A stretch of 64,000 bases of DNA from Pedosphaera parvula Ellin514 (GTDB taxonomy: Bacteria > Verrucomicrobiota > Verrucomicrobiia > Limisphaerales > Pedosphaeraceae), in assembly GCF_000172555.1 (NCBI RefSeq), contig NZ_ABOX02000020.1:1-64000 (forward strand), read 5' to 3'. The notes under the pieces are model-generated. The model had not been told where the DNA came from and did no database searches. It was given only the letters and a program-made list of their open reading frames with translations. Position 1 is the stretch's first letter, and each line of letters opens with the position of its first letter. Below are positions 11,811 to 17,443 of this stretch, in pieces. The position numbers and the translations under genes were made by a program.

Positions 11811-12605
11811 ATGAGTAGCACATCCACCGTACCCAATGATTTCCGCGATAAAGTTGTCTTAGTTACCGGGGCCGGCTCCGGCATAGGTCGGGAGGCGGCA
11901 AGGTCATTTGCCGCCCGGGGCGCTCTGGTATACTGCGCTGACATTAACGATCGGGGCCTTGCCGAAACTCAAAGTCTGATAACCAAAGCCTCAGGCAAAG
12001 TCCAAATCGCACACACTGACGTTTCAGTCGAAGAAGAAGTCTCATCCCTCCTTTCACGAATCGACAAAGAAGCTGGACGACTGGACGTCGCGTTTAATAA
12101 CGCCGGCATCACTGGCGGAGCCCACCGAATTGAGGAGTATCCGATGGACGACTTCGACAAGGTTCTTCGGGTCAATTTGAAGAGTGTGTTTCTATGTATG
12201 AAGTATGAGTTGCCGCTCTTGAAACGTGGCGGCGGTGGCGCCATTTGCAACACCGCTTCTGTTGCCGCCATAACTGGACCAGGTGGCATGTGTGCTTACG
12301 CCGCCTCCAAGCATGCTGTTCTTGGCCTCACTCGTGTTGCTGCAATGGAAAACGCCGCTCACAAAGTTCGCGTCAATGCGCTTGTTCCCGGGTGGACCGA
12401 TACACCAATGGTACGCGCAGAAAGTGCCCAGAATCCTGCATTTGCCAAGCATGGGCTTTCGGCTATTCCCGCCAAGCGAGGGGGCCAGCCCAGTGAAGTT
12501 GCTGCTGCGGCTGTTTGGTTGTGCTCGAGCGAAGCGAGTTACGTTATGGGGCAAATGATCGTCGTCGACGGCGGCATGACGATTGGTGGCTTTGAATTTG
12601 AGTGA
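11811..12605 (+). CDS. Short-chain dehydrogenase/reductase (SDR)
   Basis: A 264-residue classical SDR. The NAD(P) motif TGAGSGIG starts at residue 19, NNAG at 96-99, catalytic S150 and the Y163-x3-K167 pair (YAASK). An acidic D44 after the second strand suggests NAD preference. The C-terminal YVMGQMIVVDGGMTIGG is the usual substrate-loop/tetramer end. It starts 21 bp after the SnoaL gene and ends 30 bp before a second SDR, so the three are probably cotranscribed. Substrate unknown; 3-oxoacyl or sugar alcohol oxidoreductase activities are typical for similar lengths. Confidence 0.9.
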   Translation: MSSTSTVPNDFRDKVVLVTGAGSGIGREAARSFAARGALVYCADINDRGLAETQSLITKASGKVQIAHTDVSVEEEVSSLLSRIDKEAGRLDVAFNNAGITGGAHRIEEYPMDDFDKVLRVNLKSVFLCMKYELPLLKRGGGGAICNTASVAAITGPGGMCAYAASKHAVLGLTRVAAMENAAHKVRVNALVPGWTDTPMVRAESAQNPAFAKHGLSAIPAKRGGQPSEVAAAAVWLCSSEASYVMGQMIVVDGGMTIGGFEFE

Positions 12606-12635
12606 TGGGCAAACCTCCAGGAAAGAGGACATAAT

Positions 12636-13406
12636 ATGAGTGAACTTCTAAAAGGTAAGGTGATGATTGTCACCGGCGCATCGAGCGGCATTGGCCGGGC
12701 CATCGCAATTGCGGCGGCACGGCATGGAGCGAAAGCGGTGATTGTTTCCGACATCGCCGAGGCGCCGCGAGAAGGCGGTGAACCAACGACCCGTGAGATC
12801 CAATCGCTTGGTGTCCCCACACGATTTTTCCGCACTAACGTGAGTCAACGCTCTGAAGTGGATGCGCTAGTCGAATCGGCCGCCGAATTTGGCGGCGTGG
12901 ACGTGATGGTATGCAATGCCGGCATCACATTACGATCCGATGGTGCCGACGTGGCCGAAGAAGATTACCGCCGCCTTATGGCAGTCAATCTTGATGGCGT
13001 GCTATTTGGTGCACAAGCAGCTGCGCGTCAGATGAAGGCGCGGGCAAAATCCGGCAGTATCGTGCTGATGGGAAGCATGGGCGGGATATCGGGCGCGGGC
13101 ATGACTGTCGCTTATTCGACCAGCAAAGGCGGTGTTGTGCTCATGGCCAAGGCCCTCGCCGATGCACTTGGTCCGGATGGCATTCGGGTCAACTCGGTTT
13201 GCCCAGGCACGATTGACACCCATTTGCTGCGCACAACGCCGGGAATTGCAGAGGCGGCTGAAGAATTTAGGAAGCGCACTCCGTTGCGCAGACTCGGTAA
13301 ACCTTCTGAAATTGGTGATGCCGTTGTTTGGCTTGGGTCTGACCTATCGAGCTATGTTACCGGCATTGCGCTTTTCGTCGATGGCGGACTGCTCTCGGTG
13401 ATCTGA
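12636..13406 (+). CDS. Short-chain dehydrogenase/reductase (SDR)
   Basis: A 256-residue classical SDR with TGASSGIG from residue 13, NAG at 94-96, S147, and Y160-x3-K164 (YSTSK). The end YVTGIALFVDGGLLSVI is typical. A strong ribosome site, GGAAAGAGG, precedes the ATG. It is not a close copy of the preceding SDR, so the pair is not a recent duplication. It is the last intact gene before a decayed MDR fragment; substrate unknown. Confidence 0.9.
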   Translation: MSELLKGKVMIVTGASSGIGRAIAIAAARHGAKAVIVSDIAEAPREGGEPTTREIQSLGVPTRFFRTNVSQRSEVDALVESAAEFGGVDVMVCNAGITLRSDGADVAEEDYRRLMAVNLDGVLFGAQAAARQMKARAKSGSIVLMGSMGGISGAGMTVAYSTSKGGVVLMAKALADALGPDGIRVNSVCPGTIDTHLLRTTPGIAEAAEEFRKRTPLRRLGKPSEIGDAVVWLGSDLSSYVTGIALFVDGGLLSVI

Positions 13407-14190: not shown

Positions 14191-14353
14191 CCGGGCGGCT
14201 ACGGGTTCCTGTTCATTGGGAAAAAGATGTTTGGTTCAACGGTCTCAAAATTCTATTCACTGGAAGCCGTAAGCATACTTCGTATTTGCCCCAACAATCC
14301 ACCAATCAGACCGCCTCATCAGACCTTCTCCATCGTGCCGGGCGGCAGGTGGA

Positions 14354-16405
14354 ATGACAAATCACCCTCAACCTGACCAAAGCCATCACTCCAAACCCAT
14401 GGAACCAGCACATTACAAATCGCACAGGAGACTCCGAACCAGACTGCCGTGGATTACCGCTGTGGGCTGCCTGATGATTGAAATCGCACTGGGGCAGCCG
14501 ATCGCGCCGCCAACAACCAACGCGCTGCCACAAACGGTTCCACCCAGCCTTGCCGGAGATTCCATCGTCCTTCCTTCCGGGTTCAACGATCCCATCGAGC
14601 CTTTTAATCGCGCCATTTGGGGGTTCAACACGGGTTTTATGACGTCGTTGGTGAGGCCGACCTCCAAGGTGTATCGGCGCGTGGTGGCCAAGCCCGTGCG
14701 CACGGGGATTGGGAATATGGGCAAAAACCTGACCTATCCGGGACGACTCGCGAATAACATGTTGCAAGGAAACTGGGCGGGGATGGGTCAGGAAACGGAA
14801 CGCTGTTTGTGTAACACAGTGTTGGGCCTGGGCGGGTTCTTCGATGTGGCCACGCACTGGGGCGTGCCCAAAAACGACGCGGATTTTGGCCAGACCTTCA
14901 GGAAATGGGGCTGGCAGCCGGGGTGTTATCTGATGCTGCCGGTTTTCGGACCGAGCGACGGGCGGGACGCCACCGGCCTGGTCGGGGACATGGCCGCCAA
15001 CCCGCTGACCTACTTTGCCCCCTATAGCTACATCGGTTCCGGGGTCGCGGCCAATAACTTCGGTGACACCGTGGAGGGGGCCGTGCGCTTCAGCCAGGCC
15101 GAGGCGGATTCATATTCGATCCTGCAATACGCCTGGAGCTTTGGGCACGAAAACCGGCGGGTTGACTGGCGTGTGGATGGAAGCAAAGACGAAGCGGCGC
15201 TGGAAACACTGCAATCCATCTTTTTCACTTATACAAACGCCGAATTTCCAGCCCTGGGCAAAACACGATCGGTATTAATCCCCGCCACCGGGAAGAAATT
15301 GGACTTCACCTTCTGGCTGCAACCAGGCCATGCGCCGGTCGTGTATCTGGTGCCTGGTTTTGGCGCCCATCGCCTGGCCGGGAATGAGCTGGCGCTGGCC
15401 GAACTTCTCTACCAGAACGGTTTCTCCCCCGTCTGCATCAGCAGCACGTTCCATCCCGAATTCATGGAGCACGCCTCGAGCACCGACCTTCCATCCTATC
15501 CACCCGTCGGCGTGCGCGACGTGCACGTCGCACTGACTCAGATCGACCGCCGTTTGGAGGAATTGTATCCGCATCGCCTGGGCGCAAGGGCTCTGATGGG
15601 TTACTCCATGGGAGCATTCCAGACGTTGTTCCTGGCGGCGACAGCAGCCACCAATGACACTCCATTGCTCAAATTTGACCGTTACGTCGCCATCGATGCC
15701 CCGGTTCGTTTGCAGTACTGTGTCACCAATGTGGACCAATTTTACCAGGCGCCATTGGCCTGGCCCGCCGGAGAGCGAACCTCCAACATTGAAAACACGC
15801 TGCTCAAGGTGGCGGCCTTGGGCGCACGCCCCCCGGCGCCAGGGTCCGTCCTGCCATTCAATGACATCGAAAGCAGGTTCCTGATCGGCCTGGGTTTCCG
15901 TTTGACGCTGCGGGACATGATTTTCAGCAGCCAATTGCGCCACAATCAAGGCGTGTTGAAACATCCGCTCAAAAAATCAAGGCGGCGCGCTGCTTACGAG
16001 GAAATCATGCAGTACTCCTTGTGGGATTATATCGATAAGTTTGCGAGCCCTTATGACCAGGCCAGAGGCATCGATATCGCGAATCCCGAGACAATGGACA
16101 AGGGCACGGATCTGCGCACCTATTCCGCCGAACTACAGGACAACCATAATATCCAGGTCATCGCAAACCGGAACGATTTTATCCTGGCGGCTGAGGATCT
16201 TAATTGGATCGAGGCCACATTCGGACCAGCACGCGCGACACTCTTTGAGCGGGGCGGCCATATGGGCAACCTTTCACAGCCAGTGGTGCAACGGGCCATT
16301 TTGGAGGCTCTTGATGGCCTGGCAGAAATCCAAACGGCGTCAAAAACGCGTCATGGGCTTGATTCCAAGTCGACGCATGCCACTAGTGCAGAGAACAATA
16401 AATAG
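14354..16405 (+). CDS. MlaA (VacJ) lipoprotein domain fused to alpha/beta hydrolase
   Basis: A 683-residue fusion. Residues about 79-275 are a full MlaA/VacJ domain: DPIEPFNRAIWGFN, RPTSKVYRR, GNMGKNLTYPGRLANNML, and GQTFRKWGWQPGCYLMLPVFGPS. MlaA is an outer-membrane lipoprotein that removes misplaced phospholipids. Residues about 325-660 are an alpha/beta hydrolase with nucleophile S418 in GYSMGAF, acid D608 in NRNDF and H636 in GGHMGN, a complete triad. The N-terminus has a hydrophobic segment; C39 in AVGC could be a weak lipobox, otherwise it is a normal signal. Canonical MlaA is about 250 residues, so the enzyme is an addition. An acyl hydrolase working on lipids delivered by the MlaA domain is my inference. 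The DedA-rhodanese gene follows by 84 bp. Confidence 0.88.
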   Translation: MTNHPQPDQSHHSKPMEPAHYKSHRRLRTRLPWITAVGCLMIEIALGQPIAPPTTNALPQTVPPSLAGDSIVLPSGFNDPIEPFNRAIWGFNTGFMTSLVRPTSKVYRRVVAKPVRTGIGNMGKNLTYPGRLANNMLQGNWAGMGQETERCLCNTVLGLGGFFDVATHWGVPKNDADFGQTFRKWGWQPGCYLMLPVFGPSDGRDATGLVGDMAANPLTYFAPYSYIGSGVAANNFGDTVEGAVRFSQAEADSYSILQYAWSFGHENRRVDWRVDGSKDEAALETLQSIFFTYTNAEFPALGKTRSVLIPATGKKLDFTFWLQPGHAPVVYLVPGFGAHRLAGNELALAELLYQNGFSPVCISSTFHPEFMEHASSTDLPSYPPVGVRDVHVALTQIDRRLEELYPHRLGARALMGYSMGAFQTLFLAATAATNDTPLLKFDRYVAIDAPVRLQYCVTNVDQFYQAPLAWPAGERTSNIENTLLKVAALGARPPAPGSVLPFNDIESRFLIGLGFRLTLRDMIFSSQLRHNQGVLKHPLKKSRRRAAYEEIMQYSLWDYIDKFASPYDQARGIDIANPETMDKGTDLRTYSAELQDNHNIQVIANRNDFILAAEDLNWIEATFGPARATLFERGGHMGNLSQPVVQRAILEALDGLAEIQTASKTRHGLDSKSTHATSAENNK

Positions 16406-16489
16406 CGCAAACTGCCTTGCGGGATGGTAAATACGGCAGCATGGAATTGTTAATTTCAACGACACGGCCACGGCGGGAGGGAGCTGGGA

Positions 16490-17443
16490 ATGAATGAGAT
16501 CACACGGTTTCTTCTGAGCCACGGCGGGAGTGTTTTATTTCTGGTCGTTTTTGTGGAGCAGGCCGGCCTTCCGTTGCCCGCCGCACCGTGGCTGTTGACG
16601 GCGGGCGCTCTGATCGCAGGTGGAAGGTTGAATGCATGGCTGGCGGTCAGCGTGACCTTCATGGCCTGTATGATTGCGGACTCGATCTGGTTTTATCTGG
16701 GGCGTCGTCGCGGTCACCGCGTATTAGGGCTCTTGTGCCGCATCTCGCTGGAGCCGGACTCGTGCGTTCGCCGGACGCAGGATGTGTTCGCACGCTACGG
16801 GATGCGAGGCTTGGTTGCCGCAAAATTCATTCCGGGCTTAAGCACTTTGGCGCCCCCGCTCGCGGGCAGTTCTGGCGTCAGCATCCCACGATTTCTTCTC
16901 TTCGATGGAGTGGGTTCCCTTCTTTACGTCGGAAGCTTCACGATTGTGGGAGCCTTGTTCGGCCGTCAGTTGGAACAGGTCATGGCGGCAATCGGCAGCC
17001 TCGGAAGCGGTGCGTTGGGTTTGATCGTTGGATTGGGCACTCTTTACATCGGTTACAAGTATTTCCAGAGGTATCGCGTGTTGCGTGAATTGCGGATGGC
17101 GCGAGTTACCGTAGATGAACTGTATCAAAAATTGGAAGCGGGCGAGAACCTCATGATCCTGGATTTGCGGTCTCATGCGGCACTGGCAGAGGATCCATCG
17201 TTAATTCGAGGCGCCCTCCACATGACGATGGAGGAGGTGGAACGTCGTCAGCAGGAGATCCCCCGCGACCGTGACGTCATTCTGTATTGCTCCTGTCCCA
17301 ACGAGGTAAGCAGCGCGCGAGTCGCGCTGCGGCTGCATCGCAAAGGCGTTTTGCGCGTCCGTCCCTTGTTGGGAGGAATCGATGCCTGGCGAGAGCGCAA
17401 TTACCCGACAGAATTGCGTGTTGTAGGAGCAACACTTGTCTAA
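16490..17443 (+). CDS. DedA-family membrane protein fused to rhodanese domain
   Basis: A 317-residue protein. The first ~200 residues are a DedA/VTT domain with several membrane helices and its re-entrant motifs (EQAGLPLPAAPWLL, FYLGRRRGHR, RYGMRGLVAAKFIPGLSTLA). DedA/VTT proteins act as lipid scramblases or undecaprenyl-phosphate flippases. Residues about 205-310 are a rhodanese domain with active-site C267 in LYCSCPNE, so sulfur or redox chemistry is possible. Such fusions occur in several phyla. A GGGAGGGAGCTGGGA tract precedes the ATG. Position 84 bp after the MlaA-hydrolase gene suggests a shared envelope-lipid role, which is inference. Confidence 0.88.
   Translation: MNEITRFLLSHGGSVLFLVVFVEQAGLPLPAAPWLLTAGALIAGGRLNAWLAVSVTFMACMIADSIWFYLGRRRGHRVLGLLCRISLEPDSCVRRTQDVFARYGMRGLVAAKFIPGLSTLAPPLAGSSGVSIPRFLLFDGVGSLLYVGSFTIVGALFGRQLEQVMAAIGSLGSGALGLIVGLGTLYIGYKYFQRYRVLRELRMARVTVDELYQKLEAGENLMILDLRSHAALAEDPSLIRGALHMTMEEVERRQQEIPRDRDVILYCSCPNEVSSARVALRLHRKGVLRVRPLLGGIDAWRERNYPTELRVVGATLV

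Follow-up and report, generated by a model that had tools for sequence, protein, structure and literature searches.

The described systems closest to the gene reported here are the phospholipase PldA (OMPLA) and the maintenance of lipid asymmetry (Mla) pathway. PldA is a beta-barrel protein. Its role is to destroy stray phospholipid in the outer leaflet of the outer membrane (excerpt of PMC10719372). In the Mla pathway of Escherichia coli, MlaC is recruited through a C-terminal tail of MlaA, G227–E251 (excerpts of PMC10719372 and PMC10245069). Here we describe a gene of the verrucomicrobial strain Pedosphaera parvula Ellin514 in which an MlaA domain runs on, within one frame, into a predicted alpha/beta hydrolase. 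The gene lies at 14354–16405 on the + strand of a 64,000-nucleotide stretch of DNA, referred to below as the window (positions 1–64,000 of contig NZ_ABOX02000020.1, assembly GCF_000172555.1; contig C20 of genome G000). Across the sampled genomes of the phylum, an MlaA is paired either with a hydrolase of this kind or with MlaC but not with both, and the MlaA–hydrolase pair is used in place of MlaC.

A survey of 1083 genomes, made with the same Pfam families, found MlaABC to be mostly restricted to Proteobacteria (PMC10665443, in the portion cited). The same portion describes a shortened Mla system in Veillonella parvula, with MlaEFD only and a long bridging MlaD, which is likewise a diderm solution without MlaC; that system also lacks MlaA, and the envelope is spanned by MlaD. 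It further describes the MlaD of the Planctomycetes–Verrucomicrobia–Chlamydiae (PVC) group as being without a beta-barrel. A term search of the main text of PMC10665443 gave no occurrences of "hydrolase" or "fused", and no description of an MlaA–hydrolase fusion was found in the open-licence PubMed Central literature as judged by titles and the starts of abstracts.

Domain structure of the fusion protein

The gene is a single frame of 683 codons without internal stops. An AlphaFold2 model of the protein, built from a 38-sequence alignment, has two folded parts, with a mean predicted local distance difference test score (pLDDT) of 86.9 and a predicted template modelling score (pTM) of 0.84. The features of the gene are as follows.

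14354–16405, + strand: MlaA–hydrolase fusion gene, 683 amino acids (aa), from the open reading frame (ORF), the Pfam MlaA match, the AlphaFold2 model and fold searches
14354–14494, + strand: putative N-terminal export signal, residues 1–47, with a predicted helix at 24–45 and then Ala-Leu-Gly/Gln, from reading of the sequence and the model
14576–15160, + strand: MlaA domain, residues 75–269, from the Pfam match at 78–261 and superposition on 5nuo_F
15161–15238, + strand: linker and helix, residues 270–295, where E. coli MlaA has its MlaC-recruiting tail; solved MlaA chains align as far as model residue 269/270
15239–16330, + strand: predicted alpha/beta hydrolase domain, residues 296–659, about 360 residues, from fold searches, Abhydrolase_6 and alignments
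15605–15607, + strand: predicted nucleophile Ser418 in GYSMG, invariant in alignments
15710–16141, + strand: predicted helical cap (lid), residues ~453–596, between strands beta6 and beta7, from the secondary structure of the models
16175–16177, + strand: predicted catalytic acid Asp608, invariant in alignments
16259–16261, + strand: predicted catalytic His636 in GGHMG, invariant in alignments

The MlaA domain is recognised by both profile and fold. Pfam MlaA (PF04333) matched residues 78–261 with an E-value of 5.9e-54 and 183.1 bits (cut-off 25), covering positions 2–188 of the 195 in the profile. Residues 75–269 of the model superposed on the solved MlaA chain 5nuo_F with a Z-score of 18.9 and a root mean square deviation (rmsd) of 2.6 over 192 residues. 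These residues are the same domain as the MlaA of the OmpC/F–Mla complexes (PDB 5nuo, 8i8r, 8i8x). The original prediction of an MlaA domain joined to a hydrolase at this position is upheld by the Pfam score and by fold matches for both domains, and the objection that no profile would recognise MlaA here fails. The NCBIfam MlaA equivalog, NF011672, scored 80.3 bits, under its cut-off of 375.

The fusion protein differs from the MlaA of those complexes in what follows the domain. The solved crystal chains, which are without the MlaC-recruiting tail, align as far as model residue 269 or 270. In the fusion protein no such tail follows that point; the linker comes next, and then a hydrolase of about 360 residues. 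The two also differ in that the genome of strain Ellin514 has no match to MlaC (PF05494) and that the protein has no clear lipobox.

The protein had originally been called a lipoprotein, which is doubtful. Its hydrophobic stretch ends in Ala-Leu-Gly-Gln and shows no convincing lipobox, by a motif heuristic and by eye; the start of the protein resembles an ordinary signal peptide. A similar A-x-G-Q-like end was seen by eye in many homologues of the same clade, and the lipoprotein status of this clade is uncertain. A lipobox is visible, by motif and by eye, in many distant members of the family. The motif heuristic was passed by 56 of 125 fused rows and by 40 of 86 non-fused MlaA rows, though not by the window protein; with only 40 of the 86 non-fused rows passing, its sensitivity is poor, and some of its matches are false.

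The hydrolase domain is recognised mainly by its fold. Residues 301–659 of the full-protein model superposed on the alpha/beta hydrolase 7d78_D (Z 21.2, rmsd 2.9, 241 residues). The domain folded alone gave a model with pLDDT 91.8 and pTM 0.92, which superposed on the same chain with Z 21.6 and rmsd 3.3 over 244 residues. Pfam Abhydrolase_6 (PF12697) matched the isolated domain with an E-value of 3.7e-5, and 15 of 29 family members matched it at E ≤ 0.01. The score of the window domain, 24.9 bits, falls just below the cut-off of 26.3. A Pfam scan of the full-length protein listed MlaA alone, with no hydrolase family at E ≤ 0.1, and no NCBIfam model names the domain at E 0.01. A profile search of PDB sequences with the hydrolase gave weak matches only (best E 0.007).

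The predicted triad has the order Ser-Asp-His, with the serine in a GxSxG elbow. S418 follows beta5, D608 follows beta7 and H636 follows beta8, at the residues first proposed. None of the three residues varies among the 38 aligned sequences, namely the window protein and 37 homologues from the best 80 of 571 loci. In 70 further fused genes, the serine is kept by every one of the 69 without a gap at that position, and the aspartate and histidine by every one of the 67 without a gap at theirs. Large helical caps, such as the one predicted here, are common in lipases. The Foldseek list included two enzymes of the same general fold, the membrane phospholipase A 6i8w and ABHD6 (7ots), but their identity to the domain is low (14–16%) and many non-lipase hydrolases score equally. 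Neither is known to carry an MlaA domain.

Alternation with MlaC

The phylum sample comprised 288 genomes of at least 90% completeness, including that of strain Ellin514. MlaA places were first classed by frame length, with frames of at least 600 aa counted as long, and the 71 long ones were then checked by fetching. In all 71, which lie outside the window's genome, MlaA and the hydrolase share a single frame. The tabulation of MlaA against MlaC omits a 100-aa piece of one long frame (G372). MlaA was found in 112 of the 288 genomes, MlaC in 37, PldA in 24 and MlaE in 267.

In 75 genomes the only MlaA is linked to a hydrolase (66 fused, 8 as adjacent genes, and 1 cut by contig ends), and none of the 75 has MlaC. 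Stand-alone MlaA is the only kind in 33 genomes, 32 of which have MlaC. Three genomes have both kinds of MlaA, and all three have MlaC. One MlaA genome, G444, falls outside these classes: the contig ends within its MlaA frame, and neither MlaC nor a hydrolase was found in it. PldA is absent from all 75 hydrolase-linked genomes, compared with its presence in 24 of the 288 overall; the window's genome has no match to it (PF02253).

Eleven genomes with short MlaA frames have no MlaC. Eight of these have an adjacent hydrolase ORF, one (G314) has a fusion cut by the contig end, one is G444, and one (G447) has a stand-alone MlaA with neither MlaC nor hydrolase. In the eight (L184–L189, L191 and L192), MlaA and the hydrolase are adjacent ORFs on the same strand, and the hydrolase has, by eye, a signal-peptide-like start of its own; the separate hydrolase is thus probably exported. 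No split genes were seen in close relatives of strain Ellin514, the eight genomes with split pairs all being outside its class. These pairs favour a functional link between the domains rather than refuting it.

A profile of the hydrolase domain alone matched 86 genomes, 78 of them strongly (>60 bits), and these 78 are exactly the 75 genomes with hydrolase-linked MlaA and the 3 with both kinds. The remaining 8 scored no more than 41 bits, one of them being a 52-aa remnant. The hydrolase was therefore never seen intact without MlaA in this sample. The remnant, in the MlaA-less genome G434 (contig C376:14388–14498), is a frame that matches the last 37 positions of the profile at 41 bits, and is perhaps what is left of a lost fusion. 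At 35 of the 37 places with MlaC, a stand-alone MlaA is no more than 468 bp away; the other two belong to genomes in which MlaA was not matched, G330 (L277) and G420 (L276), both of which have PldA.

Distribution and ancestry of the fusion

In a set of 97 genomes of relatives, including the window's own, the window protein matched 29, with partial or weak matches in G042, G065 and G095. Strain Ellin514 itself has three fused copies: the one described here, one on contig 43 (95% identical) and one on contig 16 (58% identical). A scan of named contigs with an alignment confirmed 571 loci, of which the best 80 were kept. The first 37 of these 80 have MlaA and hydrolase in one frame, and the other 43, mostly from Proteobacteria, have MlaA alone. 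One of the stand-alone records, from Robiginitomaculum, has two MlaA genes in tandem (L107, 7899–9455).

The 37 fusion loci carry mostly labels of Verrucomicrobia (Pedosphaera, Opitutia, Puniceicoccaceae and others) and Lentisphaeria, with two Planctomycetota, two records of "uncultured bacterium" and one SAR202 bin. SAR202 belongs to the Chloroflexota; this fusion (L073) is on a 6-kb contig, is very similar to a Verrucomicrobiales record (L074) and is probably misbinned. The species label of another record, titled Akkermansia muciniphila (L056), looks wrong.

MlaA was found in 43 of the 144 genomes of the window's order, at 51 places. The frame is at least 600 aa at 47 of these, short at 3 and broken at 1. 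The three short frames (L124, L125 and L126) are stand-alone MlaA with MlaC adjoining; the fusion otherwise prevails in the order. The original statement that MlaA normally stands alone thus describes the 43 loci of the wider scan, and not this order. The suggestion that the architecture is specific to a lineage agrees with its recurrence across Verrucomicrobiota and relatives. The fusion is an old and widespread family of Verrucomicrobiota including Lentisphaeria, also present in two records labelled Planctomycetota. A chance read-through or an assembly artefact in one genome, in favour of which there is no point, is ruled out to near certainty by this recurrence, since neither would yield single-frame fusions in dozens of genomes.

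A tree of MlaA domains was built from 120 of 212 rows, thinned at 62% identity for fused and 70% for other rows, with the window row present twice. In this unrooted tree, 59 of 60 stand-alone rows lie on one side of a branch with a Shimodaira–Hasegawa-like approximate likelihood ratio (SH-aLRT) of 96. The 60th is the contig-cut MlaA of G444, which sits within the fused clade. The hydrolase-linked rows form two groups, one of split pairs and Lentisphaeria-type fusions, the other of the window protein and the remaining fusions. The split pairs branch amid the fused rows, so that either two adjacent genes became joined or a fused gene came apart again. Both kinds of MlaA occur within one order and even in single genomes, and the contrast between them is therefore not merely one between distant taxa.

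Proposed function

The reading that we favour, by a small balance of probability, is that the fusion is an "extract and cleave" MlaA with a tethered serine hydrolase, in which phospholipid is passed to the hydrolase and not to MlaC. The protein would be exported and would be located on the inner side of the outer membrane. Its MlaA domain would draw strayed outer-leaflet phospholipid through its own channel, and the hydrolase, in place of the MlaC-recruiting tail, would take the lipid where this channel opens to the periplasm. There it would cut an acyl ester in the manner of a phospholipase A or lysophospholipase. The products would depart as fatty acid and lysolipid, and a shuttle for intact lipid would therefore be unneeded. 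As the hydrolase directly follows the point where the tail would be, the likeliest course seems to be that it receives the lipid at MlaC's place and cleaves it.

A coupling of phospholipid removal to cleavage had been part of the original prediction. It has strong indirect support from the exclusion of MlaC and from the eight genomes with adjacent genes; export, hand-over, ester cleavage itself and phospholipid as the substrate are what we infer. The fusion would in effect unite the jobs of MlaA and PldA. The job proposed for it, the destruction of stray outer-leaflet phospholipid, is that of PldA, but PldA belongs to another Pfam family (PF02253), which the fusion protein did not match in the Pfam scan. 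We regard the fusion as a known domain, MlaA, whose known partner is replaced by a predicted enzyme that is dedicated to it and appears to be new. The wider proposal is that of a distinct lipid-asymmetry system, in which a dedicated hydrolase stands in for MlaC, stray lipid is destroyed at the outer membrane and the Mla ATP-binding cassette (ABC) importer is unneeded. This system would have begun either as two paired genes or as an early fusion, and among the sampled Verrucomicrobiota it would be the form in which MlaA occurs most often. We hold it tentatively, at slightly under even chances.

Several observations weigh against extraction coupled to cleavage. The exchange of MlaC for the hydrolase is nearly one event on the tree, and the genome counts are therefore not independent observations. 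MlaC is present in 3 (L069, L070 and L071) of 18 fusion genomes reached through the named loci (18 of the 37), several of which also belong to the phylum sample; in each of the three, MlaC sits right next to a stand-alone MlaA that is separate from the fusion. The Pfam profile could fail to match an MlaC of strongly divergent sequence. The anchoring of the window protein is uncertain, as its N-terminus is without a clear lipobox.

The hydrolase fold does not tell what the substrate is. Fold searches returned many kinds of hydrolase at near-equal scores, including esterases, thioesterases, peptidases and acyltransferases. Enzymes of the last kind are found among alpha/beta hydrolase folds (2vat was among the top Foldseek rows), and the domain could instead transfer an acyl chain from MlaA-delivered lipid to another acceptor, such as a lipid, lipoprotein or glycan. 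The choice of MlaA without MlaC fits this as well as it fits hydrolysis. PagP, which transfers an acyl chain from outer-leaflet phospholipid (excerpt of PMC10719372), would be a model for it. However, the GxSxG serine, aspartate and histidine are the ordinary set of a hydrolase, and we consider acyl transfer unlikely.

The silence of the fold on substrate also leaves room for MlaA to serve mainly as an anchor or dock at the outer membrane, with the hydrolase acting on some other periplasmic or surface ester. No widely conserved neighbours name a pathway: when 4,202 neighbour ORFs were clustered, the largest recurrence was at no more than 16 of 110 loci. Yet the MlaA domain keeps nearly the whole of its profile and many conserved residues, which is beyond the needs of an anchor, and its alternation with MlaC points to a lipid hand-over step. 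An anchoring role is accordingly given little weight.

A further difficulty for extraction and cleavage is that components of lipid transport are kept. The window's genome has 5 MlaE and 5 MlaD matches, none of them on contig C20, and MlaE is kept in most hydrolase-linked genomes. Three distinct fusion loci have MlaE- and MlaD-like genes no more than 8 kb away, and a fourth has an MlaD-like gene there. Transport may therefore still be involved. The hydrolase domain could stand in for MlaC by binding lipid without any chemistry and passing it to a mammalian cell entry (MCE) transporter, and it does replace MlaC genetically. Against this, the triad is invariant, which mere binding would not need, and the fused form is tethered to MlaA and cannot shuttle. 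In addition, MlaE was not matched in at least 6 of the 75 hydrolase-linked genomes (among the 20 listed of the 21 that are MlaE-less), so that in these there would be no feed of lipid to the Mla importer, unless the assemblies missed MlaE. We think a pure binding role very unlikely.

Neighbouring genes and duplication

The gene downstream of the fusion encodes a protein that we judge to be outside the conserved system.

16490–17443, + strand: next gene, encoding a protein with DedA (VTT) and rhodanese domains, from Pfam matches to VTT (6.3e-14) and Rhodanese (3.1e-10)

The DedA protein had been put forward as a possible shared neighbour, which the wider comparison does not bear out. By blastp, none of the other 109 fusion loci, a total that includes 6 double entries, had a DedA–rhodanese homologue in its flanks, which extended up to 7–8 kb and were shorter at contig ends. 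A conserved operon with DedA is ruled out on these counts. A search with PADLOC for anti-phage defence gave no matches for the fusion protein or the DedA protein. A scan for sigma-70-like promoters, with 4 seen against 2.7 expected and none on the + strand, was uninformative.

The region 14305–17418 of the window has a counterpart on contig C43 of the same genome (L201), with 96% DNA identity in a 2,045-bp match over most of the fusion gene. In the C43 copy, this match is followed by 53 bp that coincide exactly with a segment at the 3' end of DedA. The two are a recent duplication; the duplicated unit probably once held DedA as well, which was then lost in the C43 copy. Upstream of the fusion, at 11811–13406, two adjoining short-chain dehydrogenase genes (about 35% identical) are found between two SnoaL-like genes.

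Implications

The exit of lipid from the outer leaflet, and its fate, have been argued mainly from Proteobacteria. A hydrolase-linked MlaA in the place of MlaC would be a natural system that ties lipid extraction and lipid fate together in one protein. Both the direction of movement and the chemistry thereby become testable by mutation of a single serine. The fusion adds a large group to the survey picture of MlaABC as mostly Proteobacterial (PMC10665443, in the portion cited), and it offers an explanation of how 75 of the 112 sampled genomes that have MlaA may manage without MlaC.

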